Shown piece after piece: positions 2,298-41,572 of a DNA stretch of 42,605 nt (positions are counted from its first letter, which is position 1; every line of letters begins with the position of its first letter). The position numbers and the translations under genes are program-made. The notes beneath the pieces are model-generated. The model saw only the letters and a list, made by a program, of their open reading frames with translations. It did no database searches and was not told the origin of the DNA. Source of the stretch: a virus; the IMG/VR virus record IMGVR_UViG_3300010885_056683, positions 1 through 42,605 of that record. One strand, written 5' to 3'.

Positions 2298-4700
2298 TCA
2301 GACTCCGTTGAGGGTGGCGGTCTTCCCGAAGATGGTGCCGCGGTTTCCGCGGATCGGCGTGGCGGTGCTGTGGTCGAAGACCGTGGGCGCACCCCAGTTG
2401 TCTCGCAAGGTGAACATGCCGGCCGTCCGCACCGCGACGGTCTCGCCGGGTGCGGCAGCGCGATCGGCGACGCCCAGGATGACAGCAGGCGAGGTGTACC
2501 GGATAAAGCGCACGTCCGAGTCCGTTGCGTTGGCATAGGTGATCCAGAAGTCCCCGTTGTTGAGGGCCCTGCACTCCACCGCGGAAACCGACTTCGCTTC
2601 GACGGTGCCAAGGGAGCCTTGCAATACGCCGGTCGCGGAGTACCTGGCGTAGCGGAGGTTGGTGGTGCTGTTGTTGTAGGCGACAACGAACTCGCCTCCG
2701 GGCAGCGCGCCCACGCTGCCGGCCGTGTTGTTCACCGTTTCGACCGTCGTTGCGCTGATTCCTGCGCTGCCGGTCGCGGTCTTGGTGATGTACTTGACGC
2801 TGGTGCCGCTCGGCCCGTAGAGGAAGACGACGCCTCCGGTCGACAGTCCGGCGGCGGCGATCCACGTTGTCGTGACTGCTTCCAGGGTTGCGGGCGCGGC
2901 GACCTGCGTACCGGCGCCGTCGAAGACCGCGAACCGCGGTGCGCTGGCACTGTTCATGTAGCCGATGGCGAAGCCCCCGTTGCGCAGGGCTGCCAGAGCA
3001 CCACGCGCCGCCACCGTCGCCTCCACGGTCGTCAGCGAGCCTTGAAGCACGCCTGCGGCCGAGTACCGGCCAAAACGCACCACGGCGTCGTAGAGGCTCT
3101 CCCAAGCCAGGACGAACTCCCCGTTGGGGAGCGCACTGGCGCTGATCCACCGGGAGTAGACAGCTTCGGCTACGGTTTCCGTCACCTGCACCACGCCAGC
3201 GCGAGACCACACGGTGAATGCTGGAACGTTGTTGATCGTCGTGTACGCGTGCACGAAGGCGCCGCTCGGGAGGCGCGCGGCTGAGCTTGCGGAGGTCGGG
3301 TTCGACACCACGGCCGTCAACGCGCCCTGCGTCACACCACCCGAGGAGTAGCGTTGGAACGAAGAGGACCCGGCGAAAGTGGCGCGACTCTGCCGAATGT
3401 CGGTCGTGGCGTTGCAGTAGAGGATGGCGTTGATGTTCGTCTGCAGACACGCAACCGCCACACCCCGGGCGATGCTGTTCACGGCCTCGACCGTACCGGG
3501 GCTATCCAAGACCACACCGAGGGGGTTGAACTTGGCTGCTCTCACACTGGTCGTGGAGTTGCAGTACGCGATCACGAAGTCCCCGGACGGCATCACGCCA
3601 ACGCTGGCACAATACGATGTCACCGCCTCCACGGTTGTGATGGAGCCTTGCGGCGTACCGGTCGCGTTGAAGCGTGCGAACTTGACGCTGGCGCTGGTGG
3701 CGTACGCGACGACAAAGCCACCGTCATTGAGCCCCACCACACTCATCGAGTCCCATCCGTTGTACACCGTAGCCGCTTCGATCACCGTAACCGCGCTGAC
3801 CGCGGTGCCTGTGCTGTCGTAAATCCGGAAGTTGGGGGCCGCGCCGGTATCTCGCCAGACCACGACAAAGCCGCCGCTAGACAAGGACGCCGCCGCGACG
3901 GCGGCCAGGGACGCGCCGGTGGCGATCTGGGTGTCCGACCCCTGGAGGTCGCCGGCGTTGTTGAAGCGACTGAAACGAACATCGTCGGGGTTGGCCGTGC
4001 TGTTGGCGTACGCGACTACAAAGCCCCCTCCGGTGAGTCCGGCGACACCCACGCCGTAACAGTTCCCGCCGGGGTTGCTGATGGTGGTTGCGGCCTTGAC
4101 GGATCCGCCAGTAGAGTCACGAATCGTATAGCCGAGTTGCCCGCTGGTCTGCCCGTAGACCGCAACGAAGTTGCCGTCCGACAACGGGGCGCAATTAACG
4201 ACTTGGTAAGGCGCAGCGGAGTAGGTCGTGTATGCGCCTACGGTGGACCCGGCGGAGTTCATTACTTCGCCGACAAGGTATCCATTAGAATCAGTACGAG
4301 CTACGACGACGTAATTGCCTCCAGTAAGCACGCAGGCTCGCACTGAGGCCACCGAAGCCGCCTCGACGGCCGCGCCCGAGCCATAAGCTGGGTTCGCAGT
4401 GCTGTAGCCCGCAACGCCTTCGCCGGAAACGCCGCCGACGAAGGTGACGGCCCTCATGCCACTGAGGCTGCCGGTGACCGTGGTGGCACTGCCGTAGGCG
4501 GCTCCCGCGACGCCGCCTGACGGCGCCGCGCCGTACTCGATCGGGAAGACCCCTTCGGCAGTCCCGTTGACGCAGAGCACGTCACCTTGGCGGACCGACT
4601 CCGTGACGACGGCGTAGCCGCCGTCTTCCAGCGGCACGTAGGGGTCCGCTGACGTGACGATCGAGTCCCGAGTTGGGAACCCACTGAGCCCGCGGTTCAC
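2298..4700 (-). CDS. Tail fibre/spike-like protein with about a dozen beta-repeats
   Basis: An 800-residue protein. After an 80-residue N-terminal part, most of it is a series of roughly 45-55-residue repeats with the pattern G-G-F-V-V-A-Y-x-N-S ... A-R-F/Y-x-x-x-G-x-x-Q-G-S-x-x-T-V-E-A, ending in a short non-repeat tail (RGNRGTIFGK). Regular short beta-repeats of this kind fit a beta-propeller or elongated fibre, the usual makeup of receptor-binding virion proteins. The start overlaps the upstream stop as ATGA, so translation is coupled. The repeats resemble WD/kelch-type blades only loosely. The fibre role is inferred from repeats and position. Confidence 0.7.
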   Translation of the reverse strand: MNRGLSGFPTRDSIVTSADPYVPLEDGGYAVVTESVRQGDVLCVNGTAEGVFPIEYGAAPSGGVAGAAYGSATTVTGSLSGMRAVTFVGGVSGEGVAGYSTANPAYGSGAAVEAASVASVRACVLTGGNYVVVARTDSNGYLVGEVMNSAGSTVGAYTTYSAAPYQVVNCAPLSDGNFVAVYGQTSGQLGYTIRDSTGGSVKAATTISNPGGNCYGVGVAGLTGGGFVVAYANSTANPDDVRFSRFNNAGDLQGSDTQIATGASLAAVAAASLSSGGFVVVWRDTGAAPNFRIYDSTGTAVSAVTVIEAATVYNGWDSMSVVGLNDGGFVVAYATSASVKFARFNATGTPQGSITTVEAVTSYCASVGVMPSGDFVIAYCNSTTSVRAAKFNPLGVVLDSPGTVEAVNSIARGVAVACLQTNINAILYCNATTDIRQSRATFAGSSSFQRYSSGGVTQGALTAVVSNPTSASSAARLPSGAFVHAYTTINNVPAFTVWSRAGVVQVTETVAEAVYSRWISASALPNGEFVLAWESLYDAVVRFGRYSAAGVLQGSLTTVEATVAARGALAALRNGGFAIGYMNSASAPRFAVFDGAGTQVAAPATLEAVTTTWIAAAGLSTGGVVFLYGPSGTSVKYITKTATGSAGISATTVETVNNTAGSVGALPGGEFVVAYNNSTTNLRYARYSATGVLQGSLGTVEAKSVSAVECRALNNGDFWITYANATDSDVRFIRYTSPAVILGVADRAAAPGETVAVRTAGMFTLRDNWGAPTVFDHSTATPIRGNRGTIFGKTATLNGV

Positions 4701-5080
4701 AGATCACCCCCGAAGGCGAAGACGTTGAACGTGTTCGCGACTTCCGTCGTCGCGCGCAGGCTGTATCCGGTCGGCAGGACGACGCCGCCCGCCAGCTCGA
4801 CGAGTTGCTCGAAGGTCTTGTCCGTCGCCGCGGGCGTCGTCGCCGGGACGGGCACCTCGGTCAGCAGCCGGGCGTTGCTTCCGTCGTGGATGAACAGCCG
4901 CACAATGCCTACGAGCGTAGACGACACGGCCTTGACCGCCACGTAGTCGACGCGCGTGCCCGAAGAGGCGGCGGTGAGCACGGTGACGACCGTGCCCGTG
5001 CCGTCCCGGTAAGGGTTCGCCGTCGAGACCTGGGCGACAGCGATCCTCGGGGTCGCTGCGAACTGGGGTGCGTTCGCCAT
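4697..5080 (-). CDS. Hypothetical virion protein, 127 aa
   Basis: A small beta-rich protein (VDYVAVKAVSSTLVGIVRLF, then GYSLRATTEVANTFNVFAF). It overlaps the downstream fibre gene by four bases (ATGA) and follows the 140-aa gene after one base. Similar small proteins are common beside phage tail genes. No motif identifies a function. A head-fibre or tail accessory role is inferred from context only. Confidence 0.8.
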   Translation of the reverse strand: MANAPQFAATPRIAVAQVSTANPYRDGTGTVVTVLTAASSGTRVDYVAVKAVSSTLVGIVRLFIHDGSNARLLTEVPVPATTPAATDKTFEQLVELAGGVVLPTGYSLRATTEVANTFNVFAFGGDL

Positions 5081-37834: not shown

Positions 37835-40800
37835 ATGACCACGCTCTACTACGACAGCGAGACGTTCAGCCGGCTTCCGTTGAGCCGGGGGGTGTACCGC
37901 TACGCCGAAGAGGGCGAGGTCATGCTGGTGGCCTGGGCGGTCGACGACGGCCCGGTGGCTGTCTCTGATCTCACAGACCCCGAAGGCAACTTCCGCCTCG
38001 GCCAGGAGGAGATCAATCTCAGATACGTTTTGGAAACCGCCGACATCGTCATCGCCCACGGCGCGATGTTCGATCGGACGATGCTGCGCCACACCCGGCC
38101 GGGTCTCTGCCCGCCGATCGAGAGGTGGCACTGCACGATGGCGCAGGCCCTCTGCCACGGGCTGCCAGGCTCCCTCGACACGCTCTGCGGGCTGTTCAAG
38201 ATCCCGCAGGATCTTTCGAAGGACAAACGAGGCAAGGCGCTGATCCGGCTGTTCTGCCAGCCCCGGTCCGACGGCCCCCGTGCCACGCGGCTCACCCACC
38301 CCAAGGAGTGGGAGGAGTTCAAGGACTACGCCAAGCAGGACGTGGTGGCGATGCGCGCCCTCCACGCGAAGTTGCCGAGCTGGAACTACAAGGGCGCCGA
38401 GCTGGCCCTGTGGCACCTCGACCAGAAGATCAACGACCGCGGCTTCCAGATCGACATGGAGCTGGTCACCGCTGCGATCGAAGCGGTCGAGCGTGAGAAG
38501 AAGGCCCTCGCGAAGCGCACGCAGGAGATCACCTCCGACGCCGTCGGCTCGACGACCCAGCGCGACGTGCTGCTGAAGTACGTCCTCGAAGAGCAAGGCG
38601 TCGAGTTGCCCGACCTGAAGGTCGACACGGTAGAGCGCCGGCTGGAGGACCCGGAGCTTCCTGATGCGGTGAAGGAACTGCTGCGGATCCGCCTGTCGGC
38701 CAGCACCACCAGCACGGCCAAGTACGCCGCGGTCGCCCGCAGCGTGTGCGCTGACGGCCGGCTGCGCGGCACGCTGCAGTTTTCCGGCGCGCAGCGGACC
38801 CGCCGCTGGGGTGGTAGGCTGTTCCAGCCGCACAACCAGCCGAGGCTCGATCTGAAGCCCGCGGAGATCAACGCCGGCATCGAAGCGCTCAAGCTCGGCG
38901 TTGCCGACATCGTCGTGCCTGATGTCATCCGGCTTGCGAAGAACGCCGTCCGCGGCGTGATCGTCGCGAAGAAGGGCCACAAGCTCGTGGTCGCGGATCT
39001 CGCGAACATCGAGGGCCGCCTCGTTGCGTGGCTCGCGAAGCAGGAGTGGAAGCTCCAGGCCTTCAGGGACTACGACGCCGGGATCGGGCCCGACCTCTAC
39101 AAGCTGGCCTACGCCAGACTGTTCGATCTTCCGATCGAGCAAGTCACCAAAGGGCAGAGGCAGGTCGGCAAGGTGTGCCTTGGCGGGGGCACGCCGGTGC
39201 TCACCCCGCGAGGCTGGGTGGAAATCGAGAACGTCGGCTTAGCCGACAAAGTATGGGATGGCGTCGAATGGGTACACCACGAGGGACTTCTCGATCAGGG
39301 TGTGCGGCCGGTTGTCAATGTAGCCGGCATCGCAGTAACGCCGGATCATTTGATCAAAACCGGAGCAACTTGGACGCCGGCGCAGCAACTCGCTACGTGC
39401 GAAAGCACCCTCTGCCAAGCGCTGGCGACAGGTTCGGAGAACTTACCGTCGTGGGTCTTGAGCGTCGCACCTCGGGCGCATGCCCCGTCCAGATGGTCCG
39501 CGTCCAGTGTTCTTGCGGAGTTGCACCACATCTGGTCTACGACTACAACCTCCGCAAAGGCAGCAGCACACGGTGCCCGAAGTGTGCTGCGGCGGCTTCA
39601 AGAGCTACTCGTTGGATCAAGCAGTGGCGCGCTTTCGCTGAAGCCATGCCTGACCAGCAACACAGGACCCGTCTTCTCAACCGCCTTGGATCCGCCATCA
39701 CGCGCTGCCGTTCGTCGAACCACAAGCAGTGGCATGCTTACGGGGGGCGGGGCATTCGCGTGTGTGACGCGTGGATCAACGACCGCGCTGCCTTTCTTCG
39801 CCACGTTGCCACGTTGCCCGGCTGGGATGACCCAAGTCTGGAGATGGATCGTACAAATGTGGACGGACATTACGAGCCCGGCAACATCCGTTTCGTTACC
39901 AAGAAGCAGAACAATCAGAACCGACGCACCGTGCGGGAGCTGCAGGGGAGGATACACGCTCTCGAAGCAGAGTGCGCAGACCTACGATCTCGCTTGCGCG
40001 GGGCCGAGGACGCGCTTTACAGTGCTCTCGAACAGAGGGCCTCTGCTCGTTCATAACTGCGAGCTTATGCTTGGGTACCAGGGAGGAATCGGCGCGTTCA
40101 TCACGGGTGCGGAGACCTACGGCATCGACCTCGACGACATGGCCGAGCACGCATGGCCTTCGATCCCGGAGGACGTGCGGGCGGAAGCCGCGGACTTCCT
40201 GGAGTGGTCGAAGGGCACGAACCGTCCGACCTTTGGCCTCGCCGACAAGACCTTCGTCGTGTGCGACTCGCTCAAGCGCTTGTGGCGCCGGGCGCACGAT
40301 CGGTTCCCCGACATGTGGAGCGGCCTTGAGTCCTGGGCCAGGTTGGCGGTGCAGAACCCGGGGGAAACTTTTCAAGCTGGGCGGCTCACATGCATTCGGC
40401 AAGGCAACTGGCTGCGCATCATCCTGCCTTCCGGCAACGCCCTGTGCTACCCCAGCCCGTCGGTCGACAGCGAGACCGGCAAGCTGTCCTACTGGGGCAT
40501 CGATCAGTACACCCGCAAGTGGAAGCGCATCACGACATACGGCGGAAAGCTCTGCATTGCTGCAGGCACTCCTGTACTGACCTTTGCCGGGTGGAAGCCC
40601 ATCGAGAGCGTAACCGCTCACGATCGCGTGTGGGATGGCGTTGAGTGGGTCAGCCAACAAGGCCACGTGCGCAACGGGCGTCAAGAAGTGGTTACGGCCT
40701 TTGGTGTACAGATGACATCGGAGCACTTGATCTTGACAGAAGGGGGGTGGCGAAGTGCATCACAGAGCAAGGGACATAAGCGGGCTTCGTGTAGGTTACC

Positions 40801-41572
40801 TGACGGCGTTGTGCTACCACGGCAGCGACGGGAGGAGGTCTTTGTGGGTAATGCGCTGCGTCTGCGGGGGCCACAAGCTGATGGAGGCGAGCGAAGCCGT
40901 AAAGCAACACGACAGGGGCGTCACCGCTTCTTGCGGGTGCAAAAAGCGAGAGACCCTATCACGCAAGAGAACAACGCACGGAATGTCTCGTCACCCGGCT
41001 TTCGCGGTGTGGCGCTCAATGCTCGATCGCTGCAGGCTTCCGTCGCATCGTGCCTGGCACAACTACGGGGGACGTGGCATTGCAGTCTGCGATCGCTGGC
41101 AAGAGGCGTTCATGAACTTTTGGGAGGACATGGGTCCCTCGTACCGCTCAGGGTTGACTTTGGATCGACAGGACAACAACGGGGGCTACACCCCGGAGAA
41201 CTGCCGCTGGGCGACGCCCAAGGAGCAAGCAAACAACACCCGCAGATCGCCGAAGTATTCGACCTCGTCAACTGCGGCCCCCGCCATCGTTTCGTGATCC
41301 TCGCTGACGGCGAGCCCCTGATCGTCCACAACTGCGAGAACGCCACCCAGTCACTCGCCCGCGACGTGCTCGCGACGGGCATGCTCGCCGCTGACGATGC
41401 GGGCTACCCTGTCGTCCTGCACGTCCACGACGAGATCGTCGCCGAGGTACCGGACACGCCCGACTACGGCATCGCCGAGCTGTCGCGCCTGATGTCGATC
41501 GTGCCCGACTGGGCCGAGGGCCTGCCGCTCGCAGCCGCCGGCTTCGAGACCGACCGCTACACGAAGGAGTAG
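37835..41572 (+). CDS. polA: Family-A DNA polymerase interrupted by two inteins
   Basis: 1245 residues unspliced, 691 after removing both inteins. The 3'-5' exonuclease has DSET (residues 7-10), [10 protein letters not shown] and YAKQD. Polymerase motif A is DLANIEGR (388-395). Motif B reads R442-QVG-K446-V447, then intein 1 (448-741), then [10 protein letters not shown], so the R-x3-K-x7-YG core forms only after splicing. Intein 2 (907-1166) splits YGGKL from [11 protein letters not shown]. Motif C is HDE (1198-1200). Both inteins interrupt essential parts, so splicing must happen for activity. Two HNH genes lie inside in other frames. Confidence 0.9.
39176..40057 (+). other. Intein 1 in polymerase motif B (294 residues)
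   Basis: Begins with Cys1 ([20 protein letters not shown], block A) and has block [10 protein letters not shown] (T-x-x-H). It ends with block [16 protein letters not shown] and block G GPLLVHN, followed by Cys+1: the class 1 signature. The roughly 190 residues between B and F are a Ser/Thr/Ala/Arg-rich chain with no LAGLIDADG or HNH motif. That DNA is the coding sequence of an HNH endonuclease in the -1 frame. The splicing domain itself appears complete. Confidence 0.88.
39397..40056 (+). CDS. HNH homing endonuclease nested in intein 1, -1 frame
   Basis: 219 residues from GTG 39397 ([20 protein letters not shown]); TTG 39370 after GGAG is an alternative. The N-terminal part has a CxC/CxxC zinc-like region (VQCSCG, RCPKC). 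The HNH core is [14 protein letters not shown], then [19 protein letters not shown] and NNQNRR, the standard pattern of free-standing phage HNH enzymes. A C-terminal coiled coil ([20 protein letters not shown]) overlaps the intein's blocks F and G. The stop TAA lies across the terminal His-Asn codons of the intein. It would promote spread of the locus into intein-less polymerase genes; inference. Confidence 0.85.
40553..41332 (+). other. Intein 2 at the GGKL/CEN site of the polymerase (260 residues)
   Basis: Cys1 begins [20 protein letters not shown]; block B is MTSEHLILT; block [16 protein letters not shown]; block G EPLIVHN, then Cys+1. The splicing blocks closely resemble those of intein 1 ([27 protein letters not shown]), so the two are relatives. 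The region between B and F is a filler chain of about 170 residues that is the +1-frame shadow of an HNH gene. Confidence 0.88.
40755..41297 (+). CDS. HNH homing endonuclease nested in intein 2, +1 frame
   Basis: 180 residues from GTG 40755, with GAAGGGGGG directly upstream as ribosome site. It is complete: [20 protein letters not shown] (the N-terminal domain usual for this family), CVCGG/CGCKK, then [52 protein letters not shown] and [10 protein letters not shown]. All conserved HNH residues are present. It ends within intein block F. It belongs to the same family as the HNH in intein 1 but lies in the opposite frame offset. Confidence 0.9.

Follow-up and report, generated by a model that had tools for sequence, protein, structure and literature searches.

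HNH endonuclease genes lie out of frame within phage DNA polymerase inteins: a candidate new and recurrent intein architecture

Results

The polymerase locus and its two inteins

The stretch of DNA analysed here (the window) is a virus record of 42.6 kb, and all of the features described below lie on its plus strand. A family A DNA polymerase gene (37835-41572; Pfam PF00476, E 4e-10; PHROG 17, E 1e-95) forms one frame of 1245 codons, open throughout, and hosts two inteins, with exteins at 37835-39175, 40058-40552 and 41333-41572. Removal of both inteins would yield a polymerase of 691 residues, as calculated in a preliminary description of this DNA, and the intein-free polymerase of a relative, BPP-1, has 688 aa. 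The BPP-1 alignment spans both junctions; the positions of the window's two Cys+1 residues are occupied by Met and Ala in BPP-1. The intein-free homologs of BPP-1 and L008 are continuous across both junctions; insertion is exact and falls in a conserved host motif.

Intein 1 (39176-40057; 294 aa, type 1) lies in the polymerase motif B region, with Cys1 at 39176, a block B TxxH, an F block and the HN|C junction at 40052-40060. It is matched by splicing-domain profiles, and its Hint profile matches inteins in the PDB. In the -1 frame, which is open over 38923-40056, lies an HNH endonuclease gene (39268-40056; 262 aa, with ATG 39268 as its probable start; PHROG 374, E 5e-33), whose TAA stop sits within the CAT-AAC (His-Asn) codons closing the intein. 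Trp-Asp-Gly codons of the intein spell a Shine-Dalgarno-like GGGATGG (39255-39261) 6 nt before the ATG. The stretch of polymerase frame that separates Hint N from Hint C is a stop-free filler (39401-39967) overprinted on the HNH gene. The AF2 model of HNH1 (from 39370) has a pLDDT of 93; it resembles solved HNH enzymes weakly (PacI, Z 4.8, rmsd 3.0, 81 residues), and Foldseek with HNH1 gave no significant match.

The second intein of the polymerase gene (intein 2; 40553-41332; 260 aa, type 2), with Cys1 at 40553 and HN|C at 41327-41335, is built like intein 1, but its HNH gene (40755-41297; 180 aa; PHROG 374, E 9e-57) is offset by +1, so that two HNH frame offsets occur within one gene. The HNH gene has a GTG start, the T of which is conserved among relatives, and a Shine-Dalgarno sequence, AAGGGGGG (40740-40747), lies 7 nt before GTG 40755 within intein codons. 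In the AF2 model of intein 2, residues 1-91 and 228-260 form a confidently predicted Hint fold that aligns with the Mtu RecA intein (VIA Z 14.6, rmsd 2.1-2.8, 113-115 residues), and the filler (40826-41233; residues 92-227) has pLDDT <50 and is predicted to be disordered. The HNH2 profile matches I-HmuI (1u3e) with E 0.0065. The HNH active site has Arg where I-HmuI has His, and the cleavage chemistry is uncertain because of this replacement. Pfam and NCBIfam gave no match to HNH1, HNH2 or the Hint parts. In both inteins of the window IntN and IntC lie in one ORF, not in the separate ORFs that mark a split intein.

Survey of related inteins

The preliminary description proposed a search for splicing blocks accompanied by an HNH gene in another frame. 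Scans of IMG/VR and of genomes recovered 168 HNH-bearing inteins of distinct sequence, drawn from publicly available phages and viral contigs; in the IMG/VR scan HNH1 alone found no relatives, and relatives were found when an alignment served as the query. Nearly all of the 168 inteins are in polA, and a single open frame runs through host gene and splicing domain. The HNH lies in the host frame in none of them, being at -1 in type 1 and at +1 in type 2. Exceptions to the assignment of offsets are L254 and L256, which are divergent and score as type 1 with the HNH at +1. The L254 intein, with its divergent HNH, sits in a large ORF (L254:1898-5509) in which DNA polymerase A is combined with a uracil-DNA glycosylase domain.

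A scan with Hint alone, for which the HNH was not used in choosing sequences, gave 97 matches: 84 are single ORFs with an out-of-frame HNH, seven have IntN and IntC in different ORFs, five are without HNH and one is without a recognisable IntC. No in-frame HNH was seen in these 97. Across 135 HNH genes (78 type 2 and 57 type 1) the host frame has no stops and the third frame 1,523 (889 in type 2, 634 in type 1), and neither alternative frame is open in any of 37 free-standing HNH genes. When HNH1 is recoded synonymously, the polymerase frame stays open in 3-4% of trials, and for HNH2 in 0.1-0.6%; across the surveyed inteins such recoding predicts hundreds of stops in the host frame. For the intein 1 locus alone chance is therefore not negligible, and it is the comparative data that remove this doubt.

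Aligned inteins show nearly invariant Cys1, block B TxxH, C-terminal His-Asn and Cys/Ser/Thr +1 residues, and in HNH alignments the invariant Cys pairs and the Asp/Asn residues are kept. The layout of the window is found in APSE-1, Caulobacter phage GB2A, Shewanella SFCi1 and Salmonella Jerseyviruses. About 150 records of sequenced Salmonella phages contain a match to this HNH; among the matches listed it sits in the polymerase gene. Out-of-frame inteins also occur in SNF2 helicases (L241, L234 and L219, about position 4001). Two further proteins (L088:1116 and L091:665) carry such inteins; they appear terminase-like by eye and have no Pfam match. The preliminary description, which placed the splicing blocks of intein 1 in the polymerase frame and a complete HNH in the -1 frame, with the polymerase frame kept open through it as a dual-coding locus, is therefore borne out in the window and extended to 168 inteins.

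Probable internal start sites of the HNH genes

Near-identical inteins (90% Hint-N identity) were removed before start-codon statistics were compiled. In type 2, an NTG start for the HNH requires T at the third position of an intein-frame codon, and 57 of the 75 inteins have this T, where 15 would be expected (P about 3e-25); the Shine-Dalgarno duplex averages -6.5 kcal/mol over the 75 inteins and is stronger than in synonymous recodings (P 0.006). These P values overstate certainty, because homologous sequences are not independent and the tests ignore phylogeny.

In type 1 the evidence lies in the distribution of stops in the -1 frame. Before Trp27 there are 100 stops against 60.5 expected, and between Trp32 and Trp66 only 2 against 61.5, with 163 in the type-2 control; from Trp32 onward stops are absent in 58 of 60 inteins. 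All 60 have ATG or GTG as their codon at Trp32, and in type 1, unlike type 2, ATG is commoner than expected at both Trp27 and Trp32. The site upstream of Trp32 has a duplex energy of -4.5 kcal/mol or lower in every one of the 60 inteins, although its presence alone is no evidence of selection, since it arises from the invariant Trp-Asp-Gly codons. Because of the stop pattern and the Trp32 start codons, HNH1 most likely starts at ATG 39268 rather than at GTG 39397, where the preliminary description had placed its start. A start at the Trp66 NTG (TTG 39370) was considered and set aside, as a similar base bias is seen in type-2 inteins, in which that frame is not HNH. From this choice of codons we infer that the HNH proteins are made from start codons inside the intein.

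Selection on the two frames

Compared pair by pair, HNH genes vary most at the third codon position, and identity of the filler is barely above the level expected from the HNH alone at high divergence (e.g. 0.26 versus 0.24). The HNH is therefore the protein under amino-acid selection. For the filler, in intein 1 as elsewhere, the comparison indicates selection to be stop-free and nothing beyond this, its amino acids being nearly free. The expectation that selection acts on both frames stands insofar as stops are barred from the filler and HNH amino acids are kept, but the filler amino acids are hardly conserved beyond the level that the HNH forces on them. Two inteins have a nonsense codon in the HNH with the host frame still open (L165, 4358-4360; L207, 4341-4343), an apparent decay stage of a homing cycle, and shortened or HNH-free inteins are present in L126, L263, L208 and L270.

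Signs of mobility, and split relatives

HNH2 genes share 61-67% identity where their polymerases share only ~30% (L027, L035, L036), as expected of a mobile element. Across loci HNH2 identity tracks polymerase identity (correlation 0.70), and type 2 is therefore largely co-inherited. The corresponding correlation of HNH1 identity to the window with polymerase identity is 0.01, which is compatible with mobility and is not a test of homing. In the HNH tree types 1 and 2 form largely separate groups, with type 2 among free-standing HNH genes, consistent with two separate HNH insertions.

In five relatives (L266, L246, L248, L252 and L228) IntN stops and is followed by the HNH and then by IntC in another ORF. 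The ORFs of L266 (4001-4970) overlap, with the IntN stop at 4255, the HNH at 4242-4880 and an IntC ATG at 4877; this split intein occupies the polA site of intein 2 and is nested within the type-2 clade, inside which branch supports are moderate. Its position suggests that overlap came first and fracture later. Relatives with stops in the filler had been proposed as grounds for rejecting the dual-coding model. Such relatives do exist, but in these five the gene is split and IntC has a new start, so that they extend the model. The split inteins of L246 (1287-2272), L248 (1823-2817) and L252 (136-1139) are at another polA site, with a YYGAHTGRW motif, and have a distinct HNH lineage; the same contigs also carry type-2 inteins. 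L172, L177, L165, L262 and L265 were considered as splits and not counted, the cause being a second, more distant Hint or a contig end.

Discussion

A model for inteins with out-of-frame endonucleases

The arrangement at this locus is real and not an artefact. We consider it very probable that it arose by out-of-frame insertion of an HNH gene into a Hint domain, and that precursor splicing, separate internal translation of the HNH, homing, and opening of the filler to give split inteins complete its history. A splicing domain of class-1 type, with the Hint fold, would have received a phage HNH gene of the free-standing type out of frame, and polymerase-frame translation would cross the HNH DNA as a stop-free, structureless linker between the Hint halves. 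The precursor would then splice to active polymerase. Ribosomes would start within the intein, at ATG 39268 for HNH1 and GTG 40755 for HNH2, as codon choice indicates, and make a separate HNH protein, the Shine-Dalgarno sequence and start codon being written within splicing-domain codons. The HNH may cut intein-free polymerase genes of co-infecting phages, whereupon the whole element would be copied in. A stop and a new start in the filler would yield a split intein with the HNH between its halves.

Two trivial explanations deserve practically no weight. Were the frame shifted by a sequencing or assembly error in the window contig, as the preliminary description had allowed for, the same offsets should not recur; they do, in both inteins of the window and in numerous independent records, the finished genomes of APSE-1, SETP3 and GB2A among them, which rules the error out. 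Equally hard to credit is that base composition alone, in GC-rich DNA, keeps the polymerase frame open across the HNH. The 3-4% of trials that leave the frame open allow this for intein 1 of the window taken by itself, but base composition does not account for 1,523 third-frame stops against none in the host frame of 135 HNH genes, nor for the lack of an open second frame in all 37 free-standing genes.

Two other explanations concern how, or whether, the HNH is expressed. Ribosomes could change frame at the switch point by programmed frameshifting and so make the HNH fused to the N part of the polymerase and IntN; upstream of the endonuclease domain the HNH frame stays open for some codons, and stable Shine-Dalgarno-like sequences can in general stimulate frameshifting. 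We regard this as unlikely, since a frameshift requires no start codon, whereas the type-2 start T is present at nearly four times its expected frequency, and since in type 1 the HNH frame has an excess of stops upstream of Trp27, stops directly abut the Trp32 start codon in several loci, and 58 of 60 inteins have none between Trp32 and Trp66. No conserved slippery heptamer was seen on inspection by eye. That the HNH ORF is a frameshifted, unused relic of a formerly in-frame endonuclease domain seems very unlikely. Decay is predicted by homing-cycle theory, and a few broken HNH copies are found (L165, L207, L126, L263), but nearly all of the 168 inteins have an intact HNH frame, with third positions varying most, the invariant Cys and Asp/Asn residues kept and the internal start codons conserved, and an in-frame relative was not found among the surveyed inteins.

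Relation to known systems

Inteins are usually described with an endonuclease that is in frame, lost, or split off. In canonical inteins such as PI-SceI and PI-MtuI the endonuclease is an in-frame domain. These share with the window inteins insertion in an active-site motif and a Hint domain that endonuclease DNA interrupts between blocks B and F, but the window has its endonuclease as a gene of its own, out of frame. Group I introns with HNH ORFs (e.g. I-HmuI, I-PfoP3I) likewise place an HNH gene within a self-removing insert of a phage DNA polymerase gene; they are removed as RNA and their host frame need not be open, whereas the window has protein-splicing blocks and an open frame. Dassa et al. 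in 2009 reportedly described fractured genes in which split inteins have a free-standing endonuclease between the halves. The five split relatives resemble these, with IntN and IntC flanking a separate gene for the endonuclease, but the precursor ORF is uninterrupted in the window and in most relatives. A 2025 preprint by Gosselin, Arsenault and Gogarten (bioRxiv 2025.01.02.630785), cited in the paper on the ShiLan domain, names in its title actinobacteriophage inteins with 'non-canonical architecture', and may overlap with the architecture described here.

The closest counterpart in the literature searched is the ShiLan domain itself, an HNH gene inserted out of frame into a phage methylase, with no detectable splicing domain, which its authors describe as neither intein nor intron and for which they found no ribosome-binding site (PMC11855218); another methylase with an out-of-frame HNH has been announced (PMC12613952). 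As in the window, the host frame of ShiLan is open, and a complete HNH with a GTG start inside occupies another frame; as in intein 1, the TAA stop falls within the last four bases (TAAC). The window inteins differ in having a full Hint domain, two frame types and Shine-Dalgarno-like sequences at the starts. These two methylase reports were the only precedents for an out-of-frame HNH found in our literature search, which also returned no description of a Hint-containing intein with an out-of-frame HNH; most subscription papers and bioRxiv were outside its scope. The layout, judged unusual in the preliminary description, is thus real but not unique, being a recurrent class of two frame types with a non-splicing published cousin.

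On these sequence comparisons we judge the architecture to be apparently new and recurrent. We lean towards a broader view, in which the 168 sequences, from phage polA, SNF2 helicase and at least two other genes, would represent a whole undescribed class of mobile inteins with an out-of-frame endonuclease, with start signals in conserved splicing-domain codons, that is also a source of split inteins. Splicing and endonuclease would then be uncoupled, the splicing domain being freed from folding around the endonuclease, and both would still move as one DNA unit. One stretch of DNA would serve two proteins, as a pair of genes with a long overlap, retained in very divergent phages; this may explain the origin of split inteins, and gives a testable route to naturally split ones. 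It would also explain why some phage polymerase 'mini-inteins', such as that of Ent1, seem to be without an endonuclease.

Standard annotation overlooks such overlapping HNH genes. The polymerase intein of Salmonella phage Ent1 (L006) is annotated as 'splicing domains' only. In APSE-1 the hidden HNH (L003:3243-3665) is annotated as P46, a shorter ORF inside the polymerase P45.
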